From the NCBI GenBank assembly GCA_022822785.1, contig JAJEAL010000030.1:1-64000 (forward strand): 64,000 bases of DNA, given 5' to 3'. Origin of the DNA: Candidatus Poribacteria bacterium (GTDB lineage: Bacteria > Poribacteria > WGA-4E > PCPOR2b). This document shows positions 26,826-39,853 of the stretch, piece after piece. The notes under the pieces were generated by a model that saw only the letters and a program-made list of their open reading frames with translations, was not told where the DNA came from and made no database searches. Each line of letters begins with the position of its first letter. Positions within the stretch are counted from its first letter, which is position 1. Made by a program: the position numbers and the translations under genes.

Positions 26826-26854
26826 TTGACAATTTTTTGATAATTTGCTATAAT
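26826..26854 (+). promoter_or_regulatory. Consensus sigma-70 promoter of the cobalamin-riboswitch operon
   Basis: TTGACA at 26826-26831 and TATAAT at 26849-26854 are both perfect consensus hexamers with the ideal 17-bp spacer. Transcription would start near 26861, about 45 nt before the riboswitch aptamer. It implies strong, mainly post-initiation control. Confidence 0.88.
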
Positions 26855-26906
26855 TGATGTTGCTTCAAACAGAATCAAAGAAGCATTTCAAAACTGCATA
26901 TTTGTC

Positions 26907-27080
26907 GATTCAGGTGCCGGTAATTGATGAAGATTGCCGGAGAATAGGGAAGCGCGGTGAAAATCCGCCACGGCCCCGCCACTGTAAACGACGCAAAACC
27001 GTGTCCAGAATGCCACTGTCCCAAATTGGGATGGGAAGGTGGGCGACGCGTTGTCGTAAGTCAGGAGACCTACCTGAATC
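26907..27080 (+). promoter_or_regulatory. Cobalamin (adenosylcobalamin) riboswitch aptamer
   Basis: The conserved core is easy to follow: GGTGCC at the 5' side, GGGAA followed by GGTGAAAATCC, CCCCGCCACTGTAA, GGGAAGGTGGGCGA-type segment, and the B12 box AAGTCAGGAGACCTACCT. The closing helix P1 is a perfect 9-bp pairing of GATTCAGGT (26907-26915) with ACCTGAATC (27072-27080). A terminator follows at 27184. A second copy of AGCTTTC at 27095-27101 could compete with the terminator 5' arm and act as antiterminator. High cobalamin would be expected to stop transcription of the downstream propeller operon. Confidence 0.95.
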
Positions 27081-27183
27081 TGATTTCATATGGTAGCTTT
27101 CGCGGGAAGGCTGTGAAACGGGGTTCTTTGCCAACGCATTGTGAACATACCTGCATATTATTAAGTGTGAATGGCGGACCGTA

Positions 27184-27223
27184 CCCCAGCTTTCGGCGTG
27201 AAAGCTGGGGTTTTTTATTTTTT
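27184..27223 (+). terminator. Riboswitch-controlled intrinsic terminator
   Basis: CCCCAGCTTTC (27184-27194) pairs perfectly with GAAAGCTGGGG (27200-27210) through a 5-nt loop, followed by a T-rich tract at 27211-27223. It lies between the cobalamin aptamer and the first gene, the expected place for transcription attenuation. Confidence 0.93.
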
Positions 27224-27279
27224 GGTTGTAAAACCTACAGCTGACACCGCTATATCATTGATGAAAGGAAAGTTCAGTT

Positions 27280-28560
27280 ATGTATATACGCAGGTTCACA
27301 TTCACATTTGTACTCACAATCTTAATGTTTGCCGTCCTAAGCGTTCATGCTCAAGAAGACGTGCAAAATCTAGCTATCGTCGCTAACACCTTACGGAAAC
27401 CAGAAGCTGACATCTCCCCAACGCTCTCATTTATCGATCTGGATGAGCCCGATGTGAAAAAGGCTGTCGAGAATGAGATTCTTCCTCTTGGGCTTGTTAT
27501 ACCAAGCGATCTAGAGGTACAGGGAAATCTCCTCTACGCGCTTAACCAAGAACCGGACCCATTTTTTGATCCGCGCGGTGGGGCTATCGAAATTATTAAT
27601 CTGTTGACCCGCTCACATGTCGGCAGCATCCCCATCGATGCCGATACCACGCCAAAACAGATTGCCCTTATCCCTCCCTCCAAAGCATACGTTACAGGCT
27701 TATACAGCAACGTAATCCATGTGGTAGACCTGAACCAGAAAAGCGTTGTCAAGCGTATCCCCTGCGGTCCCATGCCCGATGGGATAACTATTCTTAACGG
27801 GAAGGCTTACATCGCCAATTCAGCGTATGTTAAGGAACCAGGTACCTGGAATGTCAGCTATGATGATACGAGCAGTGTCACAATAATTGATATAGAGACC
27901 GACACAGTCCTAAAAACCATCCCAATGCCGCTAAACACAAATGGTATTGGAAGCGATGGTGAATCTAAAGTCATTGCTGTGTCGGCAGGTATAGGTGCGT
28001 GGAATCCTCAAGGACCTGTCTCAGGAACGGTGGTGTTTATCGACGCAGTTACCGACGAAATCGAAAAAACAATCGAACTCGACGGTAGAGCAGGGGCCCC
28101 CGATATTGACAGCATGAAACGTCTCTTTATCAGCTCAGGTGGATTGCTCGTGTACGATCTGTTCACCGAACAGTGGACACACGATGCCGACAACCCACTT
28201 ACCGACTTGGGTGGTGTGGGGGCAATCGATCAGAACGATAACCTCTATATCACCCGTCCGGATTGGACAGGCGGTAGGATGGACGAGTTATATGTCGTTT
28301 CCCCCGATGGAGTACTGCTCAATACCTACCGCATTGGCCCGGGGGGCTCTGTCGTTACTGTTGCACAGGTCCAGGCGATCGGGGTGGCCGCTGCCAATGT
28401 GAACCACGATGGGATAGTCAATATCCTCGATCTTGTTATCGTTTCGAGCAACTTCGGACAGACAGGTAGAAATCTCCAAGGCGATGTTAATCGGGATGGA
28501 ATTATCGACGTCTTCGATCTTGTCCGTATTGCAAGGTATCTGGGCCAAAGTGTCCAATGA
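27280..28560 (+). CDS. Secreted YncE-like beta-propeller with C-terminal dockerin, B12-riboswitch controlled
   Basis: A signal peptide (about 1-24) precedes a seven-blade-type YncE/surface-layer propeller (about 30-365), with repeats such as I-H-V-V-D-L-N-Q-K and V-T-I-I-D-I-E-T-D-T-V. The C-terminal about 50 residues are a type I dockerin: two calcium loops, N-H-D-G-I-V-N-I-L-D-L and N-R-D-G-I-I-D-V-F-D-L. A ribosome site (AAAGGAAA) precedes the ATG. It is the first gene after the cobalamin riboswitch and terminator. BtuG of Bacteroides, a surface propeller of the same general fold, binds B12 very tightly, so a B12-capturing role is a reasonable inference. The dockerin may tether it to a cohesin partner or a surface assembly. 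Confidence 0.88.
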   Translation: MYIRRFTFTFVLTILMFAVLSVHAQEDVQNLAIVANTLRKPEADISPTLSFIDLDEPDVKKAVENEILPLGLVIPSDLEVQGNLLYALNQEPDPFFDPRGGAIEIINLLTRSHVGSIPIDADTTPKQIALIPPSKAYVTGLYSNVIHVVDLNQKSVVKRIPCGPMPDGITILNGKAYIANSAYVKEPGTWNVSYDDTSSVTIIDIETDTVLKTIPMPLNTNGIGSDGESKVIAVSAGIGAWNPQGPVSGTVVFIDAVTDEIEKTIELDGRAGAPDIDSMKRLFISSGGLLVYDLFTEQWTHDADNPLTDLGGVGAIDQNDNLYITRPDWTGGRMDELYVVSPDGVLLNTYRIGPGGSVVTVAQVQAIGVAAANVNHDGIVNILDLVIVSSNFGQTGRNLQGDVNRDGIIDVFDLVRIARYLGQSVQ

Positions 28561-28719
28561 TGAAGATGCACAAAAACATATAGGGAATGCAGATATCGGT
28601 TCTGTTTCTTCTCACAGCGGGAACATTACAAAACCGTGCCTTCCCTATAATAATTCACACTCTGAACCATTTAACCTTTAAATCCCAGTCGGTTACCCTT
28701 CAAACAATCCGTTAAAACC

Positions 28720-30726
28720 TTGAATCCTAATATCTTTTACGTTGTGCGTCTGCTATTCTTACTCTTTTGGCTTTTTTATCTCGCTTGCACGCCGACAAGT
28801 GTTGAACAAGCCCCGATTTCATGGGCTGTCACCTTTTTTTCGCTCGGTGCAAGAATTGAATTTGACGCTGCAACTCGAGAAAATGTCCAAAACATTACCG
28901 CGCTTGATTCGGAAGATAGGGTGATAACGCAACTCAATCTTGGAGGGTATTCGCGTCGCACCGAATCGCTGTACTTTCGGTGGGAAAAGGGGCGTACTTA
29001 CCGGTTTGCAGTGACCTATCAGAACGGTGAATCCACCACTCAAACGGTGCAGGCACCCCAAACGGATTCGCGAGGAGCTGTTGAAATTGCCATCCCTTAC
29101 GGCACAATTGAGGCGAAGGAAGCCGCTGATGGAAATGTTGGTGATGACTTAGTTCTACCGGCAGCGCCTACCCAAAAGGCATCGGTGGTCTTACAGGGCA
29201 TCGAAATGACGGCGACCATGCTGATCCGAAACGGGTGGGAGGCGCCCGTCAGCTTTCACATTGTGCTTGAAGTTCCTGCATCGTTTCAAGTATCGCTGCA
29301 CGATTCAGCATGGGAGAGTGCGATTGACCAAGTGGCTTTGAGTCCCAATCCAATCGGAGAGAATATTCTGTCTTACCGCTCATCAGGGAAATTCACCGTT
29401 GAATCAGAGGCTTGGTACAGCCAACTAACCTTGAAAATTCCAGATGAACCGCTCCCCGCTAATACACAAATCCGTGGTCGCGTTCTCTTTGAAAGTGCCT
29501 CGGGAGATCGGTGGGAACGAAGTGTGACGAAGCCGCTGCGTTCCGCTTCCCTCAATGAAATCGCATCGCAACTCCGGATCGAGGATATTACCATGCCGAC
29601 AGACGCAAGTGGTCTATCTGATCCGCGTCAACGGCCGGACGCTATTTCCTATCCACGTCCCCTCCTAGGCGGACTCGGTAGATGGCTCGGCGCACAAGCG
29701 AGTCCTATTGACGAGTTCCAACCCGTCACATATCAAACTGTGCAGATCCACAATCGTGGGCGCGAAACGATTCACGCAATTGTGGCATCGATGAATCGTG
29801 ATACAAAGGATGGGGAACCAATTCCTTTCCTAGCTCCCCCGGACGCTGTCAACGCTGGAACAAATCGCAGCCTCGCCTTTGTTAGTTTGATAGGAGAAAG
29901 CATTACCTCTGTTCCCCTACCAATCTATTTCAATCCACTCTCCAAATCACATCGAGATCTCACCGGAGCAGGGGATTATGAACGTGCAATCGAAGTGAAA
30001 ATTTGGGGCAGCGACGCCACGGTCTTGCACACCACACGACCCTTGCTGATCGTGACACCGAATTTTCATGCGCTCCTTGTTACAGGATTTGTAATCGTCA
30101 CAACCGGTTTAGGGGTTGGACTACTGCTCTGTTTTAACCAACAGCTGTTCAGCTACTTTTCAACGAAGCAGTTAATTCTTATCTCCCTGTTTGGCACAAC
30201 GATATTCATCGCTGTCAACGTACCATCAACGTTATTAGCCAATCTAATCTCTGCCCTGCTTGGTCCTCTCTCATCCCTCGTCACGGGGCTTATCAACGAG
30301 ATGTTGTACTACGCCTTGTTGACATCGCTGCTAATGCTCATCCCCAAATTCGGGGTGATTACCCTCGTTTCCGCAGTTCGACTCCTGTTGGGAGGTGTCA
30401 CCTTGGGAATGCTGACGCCCACTGTCCTGCTTCATGTTGTCACCGCTGTGCTGCTACTCGAAGCCGGTTTCCAGATAGCGCGGAAAATGGCTTTGGATTC
30501 CGGTGCAATTGGGGGCGCGAATCTGTTGCCTTTAGCGTTTATCTTTGGTTTATGTGACGCACTCATTGTCTACGTTGAATTCCAACTGAGTATGACACTC
30601 TACCGCCTCTTCTACGCAGATTGGTATATCCTAACGCGAATCTTAATCGACGGCTTCACCTACACATTTATCGGCGTTCTTCTGGGGAAACGACTGGGTG
30701 CTGGGTTGTGGCGGGTTGCGGAATGA
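28720..30726 (+). CDS. Extracytoplasmic domain fused to an ECF S-component-like membrane domain
   Basis: The first 20 residues are a signal anchor ending in L-F-Y-L-A-C, an imperfect lipobox. Residues about 25-435 are extracytoplasmic and beta-rich. From about 445 there are 6-7 TM helices. The last six, with A-L-L-G-P-L-S-S, R-L-L-L-G-G-V-T-L-G and the final D-G-F-T-Y-T-F-I-G-V-L-L-G, look like an energy-coupling-factor transporter S component (ThiW/YkoE/CbrT-like). This family call is by pattern only. The start is TTG at 28720 or GTG at 28744, neither with a good ribosome site. It is second in the cobalamin-riboswitch operon; no ECF T or A subunit is nearby, as is usual for S components that share a common energising module. 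Confidence 0.7.
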   Translation: MNPNIFYVVRLLFLLFWLFYLACTPTSVEQAPISWAVTFFSLGARIEFDAATRENVQNITALDSEDRVITQLNLGGYSRRTESLYFRWEKGRTYRFAVTYQNGESTTQTVQAPQTDSRGAVEIAIPYGTIEAKEAADGNVGDDLVLPAAPTQKASVVLQGIEMTATMLIRNGWEAPVSFHIVLEVPASFQVSLHDSAWESAIDQVALSPNPIGENILSYRSSGKFTVESEAWYSQLTLKIPDEPLPANTQIRGRVLFESASGDRWERSVTKPLRSASLNEIASQLRIEDITMPTDASGLSDPRQRPDAISYPRPLLGGLGRWLGAQASPIDEFQPVTYQTVQIHNRGRETIHAIVASMNRDTKDGEPIPFLAPPDAVNAGTNRSLAFVSLIGESITSVPLPIYFNPLSKSHRDLTGAGDYERAIEVKIWGSDATVLHTTRPLLIVTPNFHALLVTGFVIVTTGLGVGLLLCFNQQLFSYFSTKQLILISLFGTTIFIAVNVPSTLLANLISALLGPLSSLVTGLINEMLYYALLTSLLMLIPKFGVITLVSAVRLLLGGVTLGMLTPTVLLHVVTAVLLLEAGFQIARKMALDSGAIGGANLLPLAFIFGLCDALIVYVEFQLSMTLYRLFYADWYILTRILIDGFTYTFIGVLLGKRLGAGLWRVAE

Positions 30727-30783
30727 TAATACAATTTTCTTAACCGATTCAATTTAACTTCCTGATTGGGGGAGAAACAACCT

Positions 30784-30879
30784 GTGGCAAAGGCTTTTTT
30801 CACTTACTTGGTAACATGGTTGATATTTCTATTTTTTCTTGCGAAGTTTGTTTTATTTGTGCAGTCTGCAAACTTCTAA
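30784..30879 (+). CDS. Possible 31-residue single-span membrane peptide
   Basis: A GTG-started frame of 31 codons with GGGGGAG about 9 nt upstream. The product has basic residues at the start, one continuous hydrophobic helix (about residues 8-26) and a short polar end. It sits in the gap between the S-component-like gene and the following propeller gene in the B12 operon. Small membrane peptides accompany several cobalt and ECF transporters (CbiN, CbtB), but this one has no histidine and no clear similarity to those. It could also be chance; kept at low confidence. Confidence 0.35.
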   Translation: MAKAFFTYLVTWLIFLFFLAKFVLFVQSANF

Positions 30880-30901
30880 TACACGCCAATGGAGGTATAT
30901 T

Positions 30902-32632
30902 ATGAACATGCAAAAGTCGCGATTGGGTATATTTCTTGGTCTACTGATTTATCTTTTCGTCCCAACGGGTGCTGTGGCGCAGTCCCTTAACGGTAACGTT
31001 ATTTTTATCCGTGACGGTATCGTGGTTGAACTGGAAGAACGTCTTAAAAGTACCAATCAACCGGATCCGTTGAATCCTGAGCCAAGTTTGGTTATACACG
31101 AAGCCTCCCAACTTGGGGAAGAAATCTTTCCCTCCTGGATCGATGACCAACGAGCACTTGCAACTTACGATTGGAAACCCCAAACGGACTATCACATCAC
31201 GCTCCGATGGACTGACGGCAGTCTATTCGAGATTCACACTACGGCACCGCTCAAGCCCCTCCCGTATCGCATCCGTACTGTCGAATTAGAGGAGCCGCTG
31301 TCGCTGCTAGCGAACCTACAACGTCCGGCGACACCGACAACCGTTGCTTTTTCCTCCAATGGTGAGCAACTCGCGGTTGGAACAAACGCTGGACATGTGG
31401 CAATTATCAACCCGCTCACGGGGGATCGCATCTGGAAAACACGCATCTCCGAAGGTTACGCCAAACACGCAGCCTTCAGTCCAGATGGCAAGCGTTTCTA
31501 CATCGGTGAGCAATCCCCTGATGGCTTCATCTATGCCTATGATCTCTCAACGACACAGCCCACGCTGTTATGGAAATATCGCATGGCAGATGATATCGAC
31601 ACCTCTGTCCCGCAGAATCCGGACGATGTGTACGCATGGGTGCAATACCCGGGACCCTATCGAATCTCGGCAACGGAGGAGGGTGACCTGCTTGTGGCGG
31701 GAAATCACTCTTGGACGAAGGACGGTGTGGCTTTGAAAAAGGCTCAACTCTACCGCTTCGATGGGGAGACGGGAGCGGTCAAATGGAAGTGGCCCCCCGA
31801 TCAGACGCTTCCAATGACCATCAGTTGGTTCGATTATAGCCGTGATATAAAAACAGTCGCAACCCTCGGTTACATCAGGGGAGATGGGGACACCGGAGGT
31901 TTCAGATCCGGCACGTTGTACGTCATCAACGGTGAGACAGGTGAAATGGCGTGGGAGTATACCTTCGATCCACTTAAACCATACTTTGAGGAGGTGACGT
32001 TCTGGCGTGGCGTGAGCGTCTCACCTGATGGTGGATTCATCAATGTCACAGCCGATGACGGACGGGCATTCACTTTTAATGCGGCATTGATGCCAGAAGG
32101 AACTAAGCCGCTATGGGAAGCTAACCTCACGACACCGCTTGAAGTCAGCGGCATCCCAATCATCGCCACCAACGGAACAATCGCCGCTACCAACGACTTC
32201 GCGCTCTTTGTGACGGGCGACACTTTTATTCCGTACCATTTGCAGAAAGGCGCGCAGCGTCCTCCTTCAGCCCACCCGAACGGGATGACCCTGTTCGCTC
32301 ACGCTTGGTCAGGAGAAAAGGTGTGGCAGTGGACGTTGGAGAACATGCCTCAAGATCTCGGAGTTGATGGAACCGGACGATATGCCGTTATCAGCGTGTC
32401 CAAGCGGGGACAAAACGTTGAGGACCAACTTCACGGCGTTTCTGTCTTTGACCTCACCGCTGAGGGAGGTGGTCTCTCCAAATATCTCTATACCTATCGC
32501 ACGGAGGGGCAGCTCCCCTACGATACCATCGACATCAGCGCGGACGGACGGTTCATCGCCCTCATCGAAACGCCGATTGCGATGCCGGATGAAACGCTCC
32601 GAGGCGGGAATCGGGTGCATATTATTCGATAG
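30902..32632 (+). CDS. Secreted PQQ/WD40-type beta-propeller, last gene of the B12 operon
   Basis: A signal peptide (about 1-26) is followed by an N-terminal beta domain (about 27-110) and then a propeller with W-K-T-R-I, F-S-P-D-G-K-R and Y-A-Y-D-L-S-type strands typical of PQQ/WD40-like blades. The start at 30902 has GGAGG 7 nt upstream; a longer TTG frame exists but is unsupported. Its N-terminal domain ends in a W-x-x-x-x-x-Y-H-I-T-L-R-W-x-D-G-S ... T-A-P strand pair that resembles W-x-x-G-R-T-Y-R-F-A-V-T-Y-x-N-G-E ... Q-A-P in the preceding gene, so the two may share a domain. Probably cotranscribed with the B12 operon, 175 nt after the S-component-like gene. Confidence 0.85.
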   Translation: MNMQKSRLGIFLGLLIYLFVPTGAVAQSLNGNVIFIRDGIVVELEERLKSTNQPDPLNPEPSLVIHEASQLGEEIFPSWIDDQRALATYDWKPQTDYHITLRWTDGSLFEIHTTAPLKPLPYRIRTVELEEPLSLLANLQRPATPTTVAFSSNGEQLAVGTNAGHVAIINPLTGDRIWKTRISEGYAKHAAFSPDGKRFYIGEQSPDGFIYAYDLSTTQPTLLWKYRMADDIDTSVPQNPDDVYAWVQYPGPYRISATEEGDLLVAGNHSWTKDGVALKKAQLYRFDGETGAVKWKWPPDQTLPMTISWFDYSRDIKTVATLGYIRGDGDTGGFRSGTLYVINGETGEMAWEYTFDPLKPYFEEVTFWRGVSVSPDGGFINVTADDGRAFTFNAALMPEGTKPLWEANLTTPLEVSGIPIIATNGTIAATNDFALFVTGDTFIPYHLQKGAQRPPSAHPNGMTLFAHAWSGEKVWQWTLENMPQDLGVDGTGRYAVISVSKRGQNVEDQLHGVSVFDLTAEGGGLSKYLYTYRTEGQLPYDTIDISADGRFIALIETPIAMPDETLRGGNRVHIIR

Positions 32633-32666: not shown

Positions 32667-32789
32667 TTACCGGATACGCTTGACTTTCCCCCATAAGGTT
32701 GCCAATTTTCCCTCTGATGCAACACAAGCGTATTGGGTCACCGCAATCACAGCGATAAGGGTAAAGATGGTGTGCCTAATGGTTTTCAT
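32667..32789 (-). CDS. 40-residue remnant of a TolB-like array member (signal peptide plus tail)
   Basis: The frame encodes a signal peptide (M-K-T-I-R-H-T-I-F-T-L-I-A-V-I-A-V) joined directly to the array-specific C-terminal tail K-L-A-T-L-W-G-K-V-K-R. The propeller is entirely missing. AAAGGAG lies 7 nt before the ATG, so it could still be translated. It is the 3'-most unit of the array and most likely arose by an in-frame deletion that removed all blades. If expressed it would deliver only the tail peptide to the envelope. Confidence 0.6.
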   Translation of the reverse strand: MKTIRHTIFTLIAVIAVTQYACVASEGKLATLWGKVKRIR

Positions 32790-32824
32790 CGTTTCTCTCC
32801 TTTGTGCTAAGCGCCTTCCACATT

Positions 32825-33892
32825 TTATTTCGCTCTGTAGGTACTGCTGCATTTAATTCCGCCCCATAAGGTTGCCAATTTTCCCTTTGATGCAACGCTT
32901 AAGGTGGGGGCAGGTCCCCATGCAGGGCCAGTGTCCCATGCCTTGTGATTGGTCAAGTTAATAGGATTCGCTCCGTCAGCGTCCATCACAAAAATTTCCC
33001 AATTGTCATTAGGTTCCTTTTCCTAATCCCCATCACGATTAGAGGTAAATGCAATCCGTCTCCCGTCCGGCGACCAATCGGGGTGACGGTCATCAGCCAA
33101 GTGATTGGTAAGATTGATGGGGTTAGTTCCATCAGCATTCATCACATAGACTTCCCGGTTCCCATCACGGTTAGAGTAAAAGACAATCTGTTGACCGTCC
33201 GGAGAATAATCCGGGTTCCGGTCAACAGCCGGGTGATTGGTCAGGTTAATGGGATTGGCTCCGTCGGTGTTCATTACATAGATGTCCATATTCATCAAGT
33301 GGTGCTCAAATTCCCAGTCTTTGTTTCGATCAGAATGAAATACAATCTGCGTTCCGTCCGGAGACCAATCCGGAGAAAGGTCTCTAGCGTTATCGTTGGT
33401 CAGGTTACGTGGGTTCCCTCCATCTGCATCCATCACCCAGATGTCCCCGTGGTGGCCACCGTCCCTGTTGCGTCCGACTGAACTAAAAACAATCTGTTTT
33501 CCATCCGGAGACCATGAGGAAGCACGATCCTTTCTTCCTGGTGATTGAGTCAGGTTAATAGGATTGGCGTCATCGGGGTTCATCACGTAGATTTCCCAAT
33601 CATGTTGATCCCTATCAGATATAAAAGTAATTTTCTGACCATTAGGGGACCATGCAGGCACCCCGTCATATTGAGGGTGTTTGGTTAGTCGCCGAACCCG
33701 TTTCCCGTCGGAGTTCATCAGGTAAATCTCACTGTTCCTCCCGTCGCTGCGGTTGGAATAAAAGGCAATCCTTGTCTCATCAGCTTGTGATAGGCTTGCC
33801 GATGCCAAGAAGAAATTCACAGCAAGTGCCAAAAGTCCCCCGCAAAGATAGCAAGTTTGTATCCGTAGTTTCAGCAATGAGACTTTCATCAT
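32825..33892 (-). pseudogene. TolB-like propeller gene interrupted by an in-frame amber codon
   Basis: From the ATG at 33892 the frame runs 289 codons and meets TAG at 33023-33025. Beyond it the same frame stays open for 65 more codons to a TAA at 32825-32827 and encodes the missing last blade and the tail (K-L-A-T-L-W-G-G-I-K). The full length of about 355 codons equals that of the intact neighbours. In the paralogue at 39488 the aligned residue is Trp (TGG, in D-G-N-W-K-K-K-P-N-D-N-W-E), so one base change explains the stop. The N-terminal part has a signal peptide and five or more PD40 blades (S-W-S-P-D-G-K-Q-I type). It may be a recent null or produce a tail-less protein. Confidence 0.85.
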
Positions 33893-33924
33893 TTTTCTCC
33901 TTTATGCTAAGTTCCTTACAGATT

Positions 33925-34983
33925 CTACCTTCCACTGTAGGCGTTGCTGCGCTTGACGTTCCCCCATAAGGTCGCCAATTTTCCGTTTGGGGCAACACTT
34001 AAACTAGCGGCAGGGCCCCACGAAGGTTCAATGTCCCAGGCACGGTTTTGGGTGAGATTGATGGGGTTAGTCCCATCAGCGTTCATCACATAGATTTCAT
34101 AATTATAGTCTCTGCCTAGAATAAGATCACGATCAGAGTCAAAAGCAATCCGCGTCCCATCCGGCGCCCAAGAAGCGTGATTGTCTTCAGCCGGATGGTT
34201 GGTCAGGTTAATGGGATTAGTCCCGTCAGCATTCATTACATAGATCTCTAAGTTTCTGTCACGGTCAGAAGTGAAGGCAATTTTATTCCCGTCCGGTGAC
34301 CAATCCGGTCTGCCATCTCTCGCTGGGTGATTGCTGAGGTTTGTGAGGTTGGCACCCTCTGCATTCATCACGTAGATTTCCCAGTTCCCATCACGGAGAG
34401 AGGAGAATGTAATACGATTCCCGTCAGGAGACCAGGCGGGGGCCTGATCTAGGGCGTCGTGGTTGGTCAGATTGATGGGATTAGCACCATCTGCCTCCAT
34501 TACAAAAATGTCCGAGTTGAGGAGAATATTATCATTGAAGAGTTCCCCTGATGAAAAGGCAATCTGTTTGCCATTAGGGGACCAAGAAGAAACTCCATCT
34601 GGTCTTTCTGGCGATTGAGTCAGATTGATAGGATTTGAGCCATCGGCGTTCATCAAATAGATTTCACCAAGGAATATTTCACGTTCAGGAATTAGTTCCA
34701 GATCCCGATATGACACAAAGGTAATTTTCTGCCCATCAGGAGACCAAGCAGGTTCGCCATCGTATTTGGGCTCATCGGTGAGTTGACGGATTTGTTTCCC
34801 ATCAGGGTTCATCAAGTAAACTGCGGCCCAATCCACGTCACGATTGGATGTAAAGGCAATCGTTGTGTCGGCAAGTTGTGCTAAACTGGGTTGATGCCAA
34901 AAAAAACTCACGGTGAGCACCAAAAACCCACCGTGAAGACAGCAGGCTTGTATCTTGCGTTGGAGCGATGCGAGTTTCATCAT
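33925..34983 (-). CDS. Secreted TolB-like (PD40) beta-propeller, array member, 352 aa
   Basis: A signal peptide (about 1-35) is followed by six PD40/TolB-like blades of about 45 residues, each with x-W-S-P-D-G-x-x-I-A-F and E-I-Y-V-M-N-A-D-G-T-N-P-I. The tail K-L-A-T-L-W-G-N-V-K-R and an Arg-terminated end follow. TolB-like propellers bind peptides or proteins in the periplasm; no Pal or Tol genes are near, so a Tol-system role is unlikely. Starts at an ATG with AGGAGG-type site. Intact and full length; 32 bp separate it from the amber-interrupted copy. Confidence 0.9.
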   Translation of the reverse strand: MMKLASLQRKIQACCLHGGFLVLTVSFFWHQPSLAQLADTTIAFTSNRDVDWAAVYLMNPDGKQIRQLTDEPKYDGEPAWSPDGQKITFVSYRDLELIPEREIFLGEIYLMNADGSNPINLTQSPERPDGVSSWSPNGKQIAFSSGELFNDNILLNSDIFVMEADGANPINLTNHDALDQAPAWSPDGNRITFSSLRDGNWEIYVMNAEGANLTNLSNHPARDGRPDWSPDGNKIAFTSDRDRNLEIYVMNADGTNPINLTNHPAEDNHASWAPDGTRIAFDSDRDLILGRDYNYEIYVMNADGTNPINLTQNRAWDIEPSWGPAASLSVAPNGKLATLWGNVKRSNAYSGR

Positions 34984-35021
34984 TTTCCTCCTTTATCTAT
35001 CTGCCAAGTTTCTCACAGATT

Positions 35022-36056
35022 CTACCTCACTCCATAGGTATTGGTGTGCTTGACGTTTCCCCATAAGGTTGCCAATTTTCCCTTTGCGGAAACACTTAGG
35101 ATGGGGGCAGGTCCCCATGACGGGGAAAGGTCCCAATCATCGGGGTTTTGAGTGATGTTAATGGGGTTCGTCCCATCGGCTTTCATCACGTAGATTTCCC
35201 CGAATGGGTCATCCCGGTTAGAGTCGAAGGCAATCCGCGTTCCATCCGGCGACCAAGAAGATCTATTGTCTTCAGCCGGGTTCTGGGTGATGTTAATGGG
35301 GTTAGTTCTGTCAGCGTTCATCACGTAGATTTCTAAGTTGCCGTCACGGTCAGAAGTAAATGCAATCTGATTACCGTCCGGCGCCCAATCGGGTCTGCCC
35401 TCTCTCGCCGGGTTCTGGGTGATGTTAATGGGGTTAGTTCCGTCAGCGTTCATCACGTAGATTTCCCAGTTTCCATCACGATTGGAGGAGAAGGCAATCC
35501 AGTTCCCGTTTGGCGACCAATCTGGGGTCTGGTCTAGGGCGTCATGGTTGGTGAGGTTAATGAGATCCCCTCCATCTGCCTCCATCACGAAAATATCCGA
35601 ATTGACGAGGGTATGCCCATTGAATAGTTCAGCCGATGTAAAGGCAATCTGCTTCCCATCGGGGGACCAGGTGGAAACCCGCTCCGCTTTTTCTACAGAT
35701 CGAGTCAGGTTGATGGGATTGGTGCCATCGGCGTTCATCACATAGATTTCCCCGCGGATAACTCCACGTTCAGGAATTCGTTTTAGATCCCGATATGACA
35801 TAAAGGTAATCCGCTTCCCATCAGGGGACCAAGCTGGTTCGTCATCAAATTTCGGTTCGTCAGTGAGTTGGTGAATGTGTTCTCCGTTGGGATTCATCAC
35901 GAAAATTTCGGCAGTCCAACCGGACGTGAAGGCAATCCTTGTGTCGTCGAGTTGTGCCAAACTTATTGATGTTAAGAGAAGGTTTACAGCGAGAGCAAAA
36001 AGACCTTTATAGAGATAGCCGGCATGTATTTTTCGTTTGAGCCATGCGAGTTTCAT
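35022..36056 (-). CDS. Secreted TolB-like (PD40) beta-propeller, array member, 344 aa
   Basis: Same layout as its neighbours: signal peptide (about 1-35), six PD40 blades, and the tail K-L-A-T-L-W-G-N-V-K-H. Distinctive is that three successive blades carry N-P-I-N-I-T-Q-N-P instead of the N-P-I-N-L-T-N-H-P used in the other members. That points to blade duplication or homogenisation within this gene after the array formed. The first blade is slightly shortened (T-S-G-W-T-A-E-I-F). Ribosome site GGAGG precedes the ATG. 38 bp separate it from the next unit. Confidence 0.9.
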   Translation of the reverse strand: MKLAWLKRKIHAGYLYKGLFALAVNLLLTSISLAQLDDTRIAFTSGWTAEIFVMNPNGEHIHQLTDEPKFDDEPAWSPDGKRITFMSYRDLKRIPERGVIRGEIYVMNADGTNPINLTRSVEKAERVSTWSPDGKQIAFTSAELFNGHTLVNSDIFVMEADGGDLINLTNHDALDQTPDWSPNGNWIAFSSNRDGNWEIYVMNADGTNPINITQNPAREGRPDWAPDGNQIAFTSDRDGNLEIYVMNADRTNPINITQNPAEDNRSSWSPDGTRIAFDSNRDDPFGEIYVMKADGTNPINITQNPDDWDLSPSWGPAPILSVSAKGKLATLWGNVKHTNTYGVR

Positions 36057-36097
36057 TGTTTACCTCCTTTATCTATCTGCCAAGTTTCTCACAGATT

Positions 36098-37177
36098 CTA
36101 CCTCCCATTGTAGGTATTGACGCGCTTGACTTTTCCCCATAAGGTAACCAATCGCCCCTTTGAGGAAACTCCTAAGGGACGGACGGATCCCCATGAAGGA
36201 CTACCGTCTATCGCTGGATGATTGGTGAGGTTAATAGGGTTGGTTCCATCAGCGTTCATCACATAGATTTCTACGTTTTTGTCATCATCTTTTCTGTCAC
36301 AGTCAGAAGTGAATACAATCTGTCTTCCATCCGGTGACCAATCGGGACTATCGTCCGCAGCGGGGTGATTGGTGAGGTTGATGGGGTTAGTCCCGTCAGC
36401 ATTCATTACATAGACCTCTGTGTTTCCGTCGCGATTAGAAACGAATGCAATTTGCAGCCCGTCCGGCGACCAAGCGGGTCTACCGTCTCCAGCGGGGTGA
36501 TTGGTGAGGTTGATAAGGTTTGCCCCGTCAGTGTTCATCATATAGACTTCCCAATTCTTCTCTTGGACATCAAATTCCCAGTCCTTGTTGCGGTCAGAGT
36601 GGAAAGCAATCTGCGTTCCATCCGGCGACCAATCCGGAGATGAGTCTTGGGCATGATGGTTGGTCAAGTTATCGGGATTGCCGCCATCTGCATCCATCAC
36701 CCAGATATCCGAGTGGAAAAGATTATCCCACCTGAAGTAGTTGGCAGATCTAAATGCAATCTGTTTTCCGTCCGGTGACCAAGAGGGAGAACCATCGGGG
36801 CTTTCTAGCGATTGAGTCAGGTTGATAGGATTGGTCCCATCGGCATTCATCACATAAATATCACCGAGGATGATTCCGCCCACCTGAATTCGGTGCTCAT
36901 CCCGAAATGACACGAAGGTAATTTTCTGCCCATCAGGGGACCAGGCGGGTGCGCTGTCATATTCGGGATCTTTGGTGAGGCGACGAACTCTTTTTCCATC
37001 GGGGTTCATCTGGAAAATTTCGCCATTCCTTTCGCTGCGGGTGGACATAAAGGCAATTCTCGTGTCAGCAGCTTGCACCAGACTTACTGATGCCAAGAGA
37101 AGGTTCACAGCGAGAACCAAAAGCCTGCTACGCAGATAGCAGGCTTGTATCTTCCGTTTGAGCGATGCGAGCTTCAT
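36098..37177 (-). CDS. Secreted TolB-like (PD40) beta-propeller, array member, 359 aa
   Basis: Signal peptide (about 1-35), then blades with M-N-P-D-G-K-R-V-R-R-L-T near the start and repeated W-S-P-D-G-x-Q-I-A-F. Two blades have inserts of charged residues (N-K-D-W-E-F-D-V-Q-E-K-N-W-E and D-R-K-D-D-D-K-N-V-E), also seen in the neighbour at 37219, so these two members are close sisters. The tail is R-L-V-T-L-W-G-K-V-K-R. Full length with GGAGG before the ATG; the spacer to the next unit is 41 bp. Predicted exported; ligand unknown. Confidence 0.9.
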   Translation of the reverse strand: MKLASLKRKIQACYLRSRLLVLAVNLLLASVSLVQAADTRIAFMSTRSERNGEIFQMNPDGKRVRRLTKDPEYDSAPAWSPDGQKITFVSFRDEHRIQVGGIILGDIYVMNADGTNPINLTQSLESPDGSPSWSPDGKQIAFRSANYFRWDNLFHSDIWVMDADGGNPDNLTNHHAQDSSPDWSPDGTQIAFHSDRNKDWEFDVQEKNWEVYMMNTDGANLINLTNHPAGDGRPAWSPDGLQIAFVSNRDGNTEVYVMNADGTNPINLTNHPAADDSPDWSPDGRQIVFTSDCDRKDDDKNVEIYVMNADGTNPINLTNHPAIDGSPSWGSVRPLGVSSKGRLVTLWGKVKRVNTYNGR

Positions 37178-37218
37178 TGTCTTCCTCCTTTACTTATCTG
37201 CCAGATTTCTCACAAATT

Positions 37219-38304
37219 CTACCTTCCACCGTAGGGGCCCGTGCGCTTGATTTTTCCCCATAAGGTCGCCAATTTCCCCTTTGAGGAAACCTTCAAGGTG
37301 GGTGCCGGTTCCCATGAGGGGCCCCTGTCTATAGCTGGATGATTGGTGATGTTAATGGGGTTAGTCCCATCAGCATTCATCACATAGATTTCTACATTTT
37401 TGTCATCGTCATCTTTCCTGTCACGCTCAGAGTGGAAAGCAATCTGCTTCCCATCAGGGGACCAAGCAGGTCCCTTGTCTTCAGCGGGGTGATTGGTCAG
37501 GTTGATAAGGTTAGTTCCGTCAGCATTCATCGTATAGATGTCCATGTTTCCATCCCGGTCAGAGGAGAATGCAATCTTCCTCCCGTCTGGTGACCAATCG
37601 GGCTGACGGTCTTCAGCGGGATGATTGGTAAGGTTGATGAAGTTGGTGCCATCAGTGTTCATGACATAGATTTCCAAATTCTTTCTCTGGATATCGAATT
37701 CCCAATCTCTGTTGCGTTCAGAGTGGAATGCAATCTGCTTCCCGTCCGGCGACCAGTCGGGATTCCCGTCACCGGCAGTATGGTTGGTTAGTTTACGGGG
37801 GTTGTTCCCATCTGCATCCATCACCCAAATATTCCAGCGATATCCACCGCGATGCTTGAAGTGCTCACCGGCTGTAAAGGCAATCTGTTTTCCGTCCGGT
37901 GACCAAGAGGAAACCCCGTCCGCTCTTTTTGGTGATTGAGTCAGGTTAATGGGATTGGTCCCATCGGGGTTCATCATATAAATCTCAGCAAGAATCATGC
38001 CGCCACCCTGAAATCGGTTCAAATCTCGAAATGATGCAAAGGTAATTTTCTGACCATCAGGAGACCATGCAGGGGCCGCGTCAAATTGAGGGTGTTCGGT
38101 GAGGCGGCGCACTCGTTTCCCATCGGAATTCATCAGGTAAATTTCACCATTCCTCTCGTCATGTCGGTTGGACATAAAGGCAATCCTTGTATCAGCGGCT
38201 TGTGCGAATCCCGATACATCGGGAAGGAAGCATACAGCGAGTGCCAAAAGCCTACTGCAAAGATACCAAGCTTGTATCCGCCATTGGGGCAGTGTAAATT
38301 TCAT
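37219..38304 (-). CDS. Secreted TolB-like (PD40) beta-propeller, array member, 361 aa
   Basis: Signal peptide (about 1-36), six PD40 blades and the tail K-L-A-T-L-W-G-K-I-K-R. It shares with the 36098 member the inserts N-R-D-W-E-F-D-I-Q-R-K-N and D-R-K-D-D-D-D-K-N-V-E and the N-terminal R-V-R-R-L-T segment, so the two form a subgroup. A G-G-Y-R-W-N-I-W-V-M-D-A-D segment in blade three matches the W-V-M-D-A-D variant of the same subgroup. Full length; 41-bp spacer to the next unit; GGAGG before the ATG. Confidence 0.9.
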   Translation of the reverse strand: MKFTLPQWRIQAWYLCSRLLALAVCFLPDVSGFAQAADTRIAFMSNRHDERNGEIYLMNSDGKRVRRLTEHPQFDAAPAWSPDGQKITFASFRDLNRFQGGGMILAEIYMMNPDGTNPINLTQSPKRADGVSSWSPDGKQIAFTAGEHFKHRGGYRWNIWVMDADGNNPRKLTNHTAGDGNPDWSPDGKQIAFHSERNRDWEFDIQRKNLEIYVMNTDGTNFINLTNHPAEDRQPDWSPDGRKIAFSSDRDGNMDIYTMNADGTNLINLTNHPAEDKGPAWSPDGKQIAFHSERDRKDDDDKNVEIYVMNADGTNPINITNHPAIDRGPSWEPAPTLKVSSKGKLATLWGKIKRTGPYGGR

Positions 38305-38345
38305 CGTTTCCCTCCTCTATCTATCTGCCAAGTTCTTCACAGATT

Positions 38346-39446
38346 CTACCTCTTACCATAGGTATTGCTACGCTTAACTTTTCCCCATAAAGTCGCCAAT
38401 TTCCCGTTTGAGGCAATGCTTAGGATAGGGGTGGGGCCCCACGAAGGACTATCGTCCCATTCAGGGTGGTTGGTGAGGTTTATGGGGTTGGCACCATTAG
38501 CATTCATCACATAGATTTCCCAGTTACCGTCACGGATAGAGGAGAATGCGATTCGCAGCCCGTCCGGTGACCAAGAAGCGTGATTATCTTCAGCTGGGTG
38601 GTTAGTGAGGTTAGTAGAGTTAGTTCCATTAGCGTTCATCACATAGATTTCTAAGTTTTCGTCACGGTCAGAAGAGAATGCAATCTGATTCCCGTCCGGT
38701 GACCAATCGGGTCTACCGTCTCTTGCTGGGTGATTAGTGAGGTTAATAGGGTTAGTCCCGTCAGCATTCATCACATAGACTTCCCAATTGCCATCACGGT
38801 TAGAGGAGAATGCGATTTGCAGCCCGTCCGGTGACCAATCTGGAGTCTCGTCTAGAGCATCATGATTGGTGAGGTTAATGAGATTGCCCCCATCTGCATC
38901 CATCGCGAAAATATCCGAGCTGGCGAGAATGTCCTCGTTAAAGAGTTCGGCAGATGTAAATGCAACCTGTCTTCCGTCCGGTGACCAAGAGGAAACACCA
39001 TCTGCCCTTTCTGGCGATTGAGTTAGGTTGATAGGATTGGTGCCATCGAGATTCATCAGATAGATTTCACCGCGCCAGATTCCACGTTCAGGGATTTGTT
39101 CTAGATTTCGAAATGACACAAAGGTGATCTTCTTCCCATCAAGGGACCAAGCAGGCTCCTCGTCATATTGAGGGTGTTTGGTGAGTTGGCGGATTTGTTT
39201 CCCATCGGGGTTCATCAGGTAAATTTCGCCATTCCTCCAGTCACTGCGATTGGACATAAAGGCAATCGTTGTGTCAGCGGCTTGCACTAGACTTGCCGAT
39301 GCCAAGAGAAGGTACACAGCAAGTGCCAGAAGTCCACGGTGAAGACCAGGTTCCGATTTATCGAAATCCTCGTCGTTGTTTGGACCCCGATTCCACCAGG
39401 ATAACGTCGGAACTTGTGTATTCTGTTTGAACAGTGCAGGTGTCAT
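38346..39446 (-). CDS. Secreted TolB-like (PD40) beta-propeller, array member with unusual N-terminus, 366 aa
   Basis: The mature part matches the array family: blades with W-S-P-D-G-x-Q-I-A-F and N-A-D-G-T-N-P-I, tail K-L-A-T-L-W-G-K-V-K-R. The N-terminus differs. About 30 polar residues (including G-P-N-N-D-E-D-F-D-K-S-E) precede the hydrophobic segment G-L-L-A-L-A-V-Y-L-L-L, so the signal sequence is pushed to about 35-53 and may act as an uncleaved anchor, unless translation starts later. No alternative ATG with a ribosome site is apparent. GGAGG lies before the annotated ATG. 41-bp spacer to the following unit. Confidence 0.87.
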   Translation of the reverse strand: MTPALFKQNTQVPTLSWWNRGPNNDEDFDKSEPGLHRGLLALAVYLLLASASLVQAADTTIAFMSNRSDWRNGEIYLMNPDGKQIRQLTKHPQYDEEPAWSLDGKKITFVSFRNLEQIPERGIWRGEIYLMNLDGTNPINLTQSPERADGVSSWSPDGRQVAFTSAELFNEDILASSDIFAMDADGGNLINLTNHDALDETPDWSPDGLQIAFSSNRDGNWEVYVMNADGTNPINLTNHPARDGRPDWSPDGNQIAFSSDRDENLEIYVMNANGTNSTNLTNHPAEDNHASWSPDGLRIAFSSIRDGNWEIYVMNANGANPINLTNHPEWDDSPSWGPTPILSIASNGKLATLWGKVKRSNTYGKR

Positions 39447-39487
39447 TGTTTTCCTCCTTTATCTGTCCGCTGAGTTCCTCACAAATT

Positions 39488-39853
39488 CTACTTCACACCG
39501 TAGATATTGCTACGCTTGACTTTTCCCCATAAGGTTGTCAATCTTCCGTTTGGAGCAACGCTTAAGTTTGGTGTCAGTTCCCATGAAGGCTGACTGTCCC
39601 ATGCAGGGTGATTGGTGAGGTTAATGGGATTAGTCCCATCGGCATTCATCACATAGACTTCCCAATTATCGTTAGGTTTCTTTTTCCAATTCCCGTCACG
39701 GTTAGAGGAGAATGCAATTCGTAGCCCATCCGGTGACCAATCAGGGTAACCGTCTAAAGCATCATGTGCTAAGAGGAAGCACACAGCGAGCACCAAAAGT
39801 CCGCTATGAAGATAGCAGGCTTGTATCTGTCGTTTGAACCATGCGAGTTTCAT
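39488..39853 (-). CDS. Internally deleted TolB-like array member, 121 aa
   Basis: The signal peptide (M-K-L-A-W-F-K-R ... C-F-L-L-A) is fused directly to H-D-A-L-D-G-Y-P-D-W-S-P-D-G, which in the 35022 member lies in the fourth blade (N-H-D-A-L-D-Q-T-P-D-W). So about 160 codons are missing in frame. Two blades and the tail R-L-T-T-L-W-G-K-V-K-R remain. GGAGG precedes the ATG. It is the first unit of the array on its strand and the nearest to the putative control region and SgrR-like gene. It could not form a closed propeller alone; it may be a remnant or could pair with another member. Confidence 0.8.
   Translation of the reverse strand: MKLAWFKRQIQACYLHSGLLVLAVCFLLAHDALDGYPDWSPDGLRIAFSSNRDGNWKKKPNDNWEVYVMNADGTNPINLTNHPAWDSQPSWELTPNLSVAPNGRLTTLWGKVKRSNIYGVK

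Follow-up and report, generated by a model that had tools for sequence, protein, structure and literature searches.

The S component YkoE of Bacillus subtilis, which we take to be the protein of PDB entry 5edl, belongs to the Pfam family PF09819 and carries thiamine as part of YkoEDC, a group I ECF transporter under TPP riboswitch control; S components of this group normally share an operon with their ECF module. YkoD, the ATPase with which YkoE works, is a fused double ATPase (PMC5037267). Cobalamin is handled in Lactobacillus by ECF-CbrT, with a bare S component that has no ectodomain, and in Gram-negatives by BtuM, a small solitary S component that also lacks one; a conserved and essential cysteine of BtuM (Cys80) ligates the cobalt of cobalamin, and BtuM-type proteins are almost restricted to organisms without an ECF module (PMC6072759). 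For the many Gram-negative B12 auxotrophs that do not possess BtuCDF, no importer of the inner membrane is known (PMC6072759). Bacteroides species use BtuG, a surface lipoprotein with a YVTN/YncE-type propeller, together with BtuB (the BtuG structure codes used here were taken from PMC10404256), whereas the BtuFCD system has a FecCD-type permease, BtuC. In Poribacteria, abundant sponge-associated symbionts, B12 import was earlier proposed to proceed via TonB systems only, with no importer identified (PMC5087111). A literature search found no report of a poribacterial cobalamin riboswitch.

The window analyzed here (the whole stretch of 64,000 nucleotides) is Candidatus Poribacteria DNA from one contig (C145) of a 5.6-Mb genome (G000), and the named relatives of its P2 protein all come from Candidatus Poribacteria (60/60). 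On its plus strand, the unit at 26826–32632 comprises a promoter, a cobalamin riboswitch and an intrinsic terminator followed by three genes, P1, P2 and P3 (Table 1). The aptamer, the only RF00174 copy in this genome, covers the full length of the model and lies far above the gathering cut-off of 31.5 bits. The terminator is kept in position and with related sequence in 27 of 30 relatives, 75–138 nt 3' of the aptamer with one weak outlier, although a hairpin of this kind is also obtained from 32 of 150 shuffled sequences. Since it recurs at a similar distance and with related sequence, the conserved terminator points to riboswitch control by termination, as far as sequence alone can indicate. 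The consensus promoter, cobalamin aptamer and terminator of the initial annotation are thus all confirmed, as are its secreted propeller-dockerin protein and its second secreted propeller, given the Pfam matches over cut-off in P1 and P3. The small membrane peptide that it had placed between P2 and P3 did not survive: the 31-aa ORF exists but is matched in only one other locus, and the P2–P3 gap measures 21–46 bp in 14 of 55 loci, so that the ORF was rejected as an operon component.

Table 1. Features of the riboswitch-controlled unit; positions are numbered from the first letter of the window.
Feature	Position	Strand	Support
Sigma-70 promoter, TTGACA-N17-TATAAT, extended -10 (TG before -10)	26826..26854	+	12/12 consensus matches
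Cobalamin riboswitch aptamer, RF00174	26895..27091	+	114.3 bits, E 6.6e-28, model 1-189/189
Intrinsic terminator, probable riboswitch expression platform	27183..27211	+	13-bp stem then T run
P1, secreted YVTN propeller, BtuG-like, ending in a type I dockerin	27280..28560	+	PF00404 over cut-off, TIGR02276 repeat
P2, 668-aa probable lipoprotein (Cys23) with tandem Ig-like ectodomain and C-terminal S-component-like membrane domain	28720..30726	+	AF2, Foldseek, Cys23
P2 residues 446-668, membrane domain modeled for the fold search	30055..30723	+	AF2 model, Foldseek
31-aa hydrophobic ORF, probably not a gene	30784..30879	+	Not conserved
P3, secreted WD40/PQQ-like propeller	30902..32632	+	PF13360 over cut-off

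The family profile of P1 matches BtuG1 in a single alignment of 257 columns (E 6.5e-14) and the BtuG2 and BtuG3 structures with E of about 1e-6 to 1e-7, whereas E. coli YncE is reached with E 0.14 only, over about 65 columns; the best E-value belongs to 1l0q, a repetitive surface-layer propeller that aligns piecewise. Judged by these profile comparisons, P1 is far nearer to BtuG than to YncE, and the analogy with BtuG drawn in the initial annotation has gained sequence support; capture of B12 by P1 is a proposed role. Unlike the BtuG lipoproteins, P1 begins with an ordinary signal peptide without the BtuG lipobox, it ends in a dockerin or another tail, and no BtuB is encoded in the operon. Cohesin domains number 6–20 per genome, and in four loci the dockerin is swapped for another C-terminal tail. 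Within the window itself, tandem genes for TolB-like propellers on the minus strand (32711–39547) encode proteins ending in G(K/R)L(A/T)TLWGxxK plus 6–11 residues (7 occurrences), and a tail of this type stands in place of the dockerin in the P1 homologs of two loci (L085, L086) and, more weakly, of two others (L127, L130). Because a similar tail replaces the dockerin in these homologs, a function in sorting or anchoring is possible; the tail corresponds to no listed family. As for P3, a full-length homolog adjoins P2 in nearly all loci, and no specific relative was found beyond the WD40/PQQ-like propeller class; the propeller classes of both P1 and P3 are abundant in Poribacteria. One relative carries P3 in tandem duplicate behind P2 (L063:5484-9418, G002:C49), the copies being 85% and 86% identical to the P3 of the window.

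The sequence of P2 gave nothing significant against the PDB or against Pfam/NCBIfam. Its Cys23 is kept in every homolog (59/59), in surroundings that resemble a lipobox, which makes P2 a probable lipoprotein. Modeled in full length by AlphaFold (AF2; mean pLDDT 80.3, pTM 0.68), it consists of beta-rich domains from about residue 36 to 445 followed by seven predicted transmembrane helices in the C-terminal third. Foldseek of this full-length model against the PDB returned only generic Ig-like/FnIII proteins with low TM-scores, a result that offers no clue to a ligand of the ectodomain and on which its interpretation as a stalk rests. The membrane domain modeled alone (pLDDT 83.9, pTM 0.78) has a single confident PDB match, 5edl, listed in the Foldseek output as an ECF transporter S component (prob 1.00, TM 0.56/0.63, with a modest E-value of 0.025); the remaining matches have a prob of 0.25 or less. 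The domain is thus predicted to adopt the six-helix S-component fold with one extra N-terminal helix (residues 449–471) before the core and the N-terminus outside. The resemblance to an S component suggested by the initial annotation is therefore upheld as a predicted fold, with the qualification that the closest structure is YkoE and not CbrT, which had been named for comparison.

Independently of the fold comparison, when PF09819 was searched in Poribacteria genomes the best matches were P2 genes, namely those of G011 (E 0.0019, positions 2–118 of 121, 117 covered) and G012 (E 0.09, positions 3–119). All of these scores are under the Pfam cut-off and formal membership of an S-component family is consequently not claimed from sequence. 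The AXXXA site of helix 1, the canonical motif for docking on EcfT, reads A/S489-xxx-T493 in most of the 59 P2 sequences, with alanine at 493 in five; the motif of YkoE itself is S/AxxxI/V (PMC5037267). P2 differs further from YkoE in its extra N-terminal helix, Ig-like ectodomain and lipid anchor, and in standing behind a cobalamin riboswitch. Inside the membrane helices the polar residues N526, E527, R554, E581, D613 (59/59) and Q622 are invariant and Cys612 is kept in 58/59 homologs, a pattern of conservation that suggests a functional core. By analogy with Cys80 of BtuM, Cys612 is possibly a cobalt ligand, its position relative to the pocket not being established.

Conservation was surveyed in 59 genomes of the order to which the window belongs, with stricter filters for the riboswitch search. 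P2 is present in 56 of them, the cobalamin riboswitch was detected in 57 and P3 is present in all 59, in a few as weak or partial matches only. A same-strand riboswitch lies upstream of 53 of the 56 P2 genes, typically about 1.3–2.1 kb away and with P1 in between, and the order riboswitch-P1-P2-P3 recurs while the neighboring genes vary among the families f1, f2, f3 and f4. The three P2 genes without a linked riboswitch come from operons on other or truncated contigs: in G002 the operon is divided between contigs C9 and C49, in G045 P2 lies about 1 kb from the contig start, and in the fragmented assembly of G008 the riboswitch was detected on a different contig from P2. The search among relatives advised at the outset thus showed that the gene order behind the cobalamin riboswitch is kept; the large majority of genomes have the riboswitch at the P1-P2-P3 locus and nowhere else, and more than one copy was detected under these stricter filters in G006 alone (two). 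Riboswitches without a downstream P2 mostly precede P1 and then another exported protein, so that the riboswitch is as tightly linked to P1 as to P2; in three such loci (G002, at a contig end, G004 and the second locus of G006) a cohesin-domain protein follows P1. The second riboswitch of G006 (L067:4945-8364, G006:C19) precedes a P1-like propeller and the cohesin protein without P2 or P3. The riboswitch of G008 lies on a 5.3-kb contig (L069:1263-4846, G008:C394), where it precedes genes for an RRXRR/HNH protein and for a fusion of Cas4 with Cas1, a context that may reflect a rearrangement, a chimera or a contaminant. In family f4, a gene for the epoxyqueuosine reductase QueG (TIGR00276 over cut-off) is found just upstream of the riboswitch (L072:4195-5379, L073:10957-12141); QueG is a cobalamin-dependent enzyme.

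None of the 21 genomes searched has CbiC, which marks synthesis of the corrin ring, and proteins with a B12-binding domain are encoded in 9/9 genomes tested, with five such proteins in the genome of the window; one B12-binding-domain protein is interpreted as MetH's C-terminal half. Unlike organisms with BtuFCD, neither this genome nor its single-contig sister (G001) yielded a FecCD/BtuC permease. Full-length FecCD occurs in about half of the relatives; it was not accepted as BtuC, the only system read (G002) having an ATPase over the heme cut-off. The genome of the window encodes TonB-dependent receptors (12 plug domains), none within the operon, and BtuB was rejected among the nine of the 12 that were tested, the highest score being 106 bits where the cut-off is 600. 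The absence of classical uptake genes stated in the initial annotation accordingly stands at genome scale for the inner membrane, with no FecCD/BtuC in these two genomes; in the outer membrane TonB receptors do exist, and none of the nine tested comes near the BtuB cut-off.

The genome of the window and several relatives encode an ECF module. EcfT (PF02361) is present in exactly one copy in 28 of 30 genomes, and in the genome of the window it overlaps the gene for a double ATPase (583 aa) that exceeds both curated ECF cut-offs (TIGR04520, 428.6 bits against a cut-off of 315; TIGR04521, 410.7 against 330), a fused EcfA1-EcfA2 like YkoD. Reading of this neighborhood disclosed no S component beside EcfAA-EcfT; directly upstream lies a B12-binding radical SAM gene (PF02310, Radical_SAM, DUF4070; L149:5422-10016, G000:C39). 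The same trio recurs in G001, G006, G009 and G021, in G006 with one gene between EcfAA and EcfT. EcfAA is established only for genomes whose EcfT neighborhood was read, and EcfT stands without an adjacent EcfA in G011, G014, G016, G019 and G026. In the loci examined P2 never adjoins ECF genes, the two lying on different contigs or loci. P2 was not found in three genomes that bear EcfT, G004 (88% complete), G016 (80% complete) and G007 (910 contigs), and EcfT was not found in G008 and G028, which bear P2. No S component of the PF12822 type was found in 21 genomes (a search that did not extend to BioY, CbiM or other S families). Since no PF12822 S component was found and the module has none beside it, P2 is inferred to be the client of EcfAA-EcfT by elimination and by family resemblance, within the limits of that search.

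This pairing has to be weighed against the possibility that P2, in the manner of BtuM, functions alone and without an ECF module, and that EcfAA-EcfT serves another substrate. The predicted S fold, the Gram-negative-like setting and the nearly invariant Cys612, which recalls the essential Cys80 of BtuM, would all suit such a protein, as would the separation of P2 from ECF genes in the loci examined and the two genomes in which P2 was found and EcfT was not. BtuM is, on the other hand, small and without an ectodomain, and hardly any of its relatives come from organisms that have an ECF module (PMC6072759). One EcfT is present in nearly all of the genomes here, and the search for a client of it revealed none of the PF12822 type, BioY and CbiM again being outside that search; a solitary P2 is considered unlikely. 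It is very unlikely that P2 is a corrinoid sensor or receptor and not a transporter. Such a role could be imagined from the 5TMR histidine kinases, in which a further helix, H0, precedes the S-component fold (PMC11109136), and the seven helices, outside N-terminus and large ectodomain of P2 are in keeping with it. P2 nevertheless terminates just past its last helix without a cytoplasmic output domain, and a sensor would leave the genome of the window, with its B12-dependent enzymes and without CbiC, with no known importer.

Cobalamin riboswitches can also control B12-independent isozymes, and the operon might be B12-regulated and yet do another job, such as supplying a B12-independent substitute, taking up another vitamin (e.g., thiamine) or assembling surface proteins. 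The closest fold to the P2 membrane domain is indeed that of a thiamine S component, and P1 and P3 come from propeller classes that are common in the phylum; the profile of P1 is nevertheless specifically BtuG-like, and B12 is needed by genomes in which neither CbiC nor a known importer of the inner membrane was found, which leaves another job rather improbable.

Corrinoid uptake remains the most economical reading because the anatomy of the operon, its conservation and the genome-wide absences all bear on it, and that the operon as a whole serves this purpose is considered highly probable, ligand binding and transport being inferred. More specifically, a corrinoid importer in which P2 is an S component on an Ig-like lipoprotein stalk, driven by the ECF module, appears fairly probable; the ligand and the P2-ECF pairing are again inferences. 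The B12 capture and uptake proposed in the initial annotation is therefore supported by the kept operon order, the predicted S fold and the BtuG-like P1, without B12 binding, transport or the pairing having been demonstrated; of the two outcomes that the annotation had named as refuting it, neither was observed. Several points count against the importer. The Foldseek E-value (0.025) is modest, PF09819 remains below the Pfam cut-off and the AXXXA site is mostly A/S-xxx-T. YkoE carries thiamine and, as a group I component, is normally encoded with its ECF module, which P2 is not. EcfT and P2 were each found without the other in the five genomes named above, and five EcfT genes stand without an adjacent EcfA. 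There is no ligand evidence, P1 lacks the BtuG lipobox and the operon has no BtuB.

If this importer operates as its anatomy implies, scarcity of B12 would cause the riboswitch to let transcription through the terminator, and the three exported proteins would be made. P1, as a BtuG-like propeller, would capture the corrinoid outside the inner membrane, and its dockerin would presumably attach it to surface proteins with cohesin domains, a different C-terminal tail taking over this task in some lineages. The outer-membrane route would be an unidentified TonB receptor, and P3, the second propeller, would probably be a periplasmic partner. P2, with its N-terminal lipid anchor and its Ig-like stalk presumably in the periplasm, would bind the corrinoid in the inner membrane by its seven-helix C-terminal domain and dock on the separately encoded EcfA1-EcfA2 and EcfT, where ATP would drive import. 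The proposed job and energy source are those of ECF-CbrT, from which P2 differs by its ectodomain and Poribacteria by the lack of any PF12822-type S component found.

A bolder proposal, advanced only tentatively and perhaps not the likelier outcome, is that P2 founds a class of B12 transporters in which an S component on a lipid-anchored stalk takes the corrinoid directly from dedicated propellers, with Cys612 as a possible cobalt ligand, and that it is the sole B12 route of a sponge-symbiont phylum. The riboswitch, the predicted fold and the genome-wide absences converge on one importer candidate for Poribacteria. If the candidate proves true, ECF-type B12 uptake would extend to Poribacteria, its S component would stand on a large stalk in the periplasm, and capture proteins of the BtuG kind would be found outside Bacteroides.
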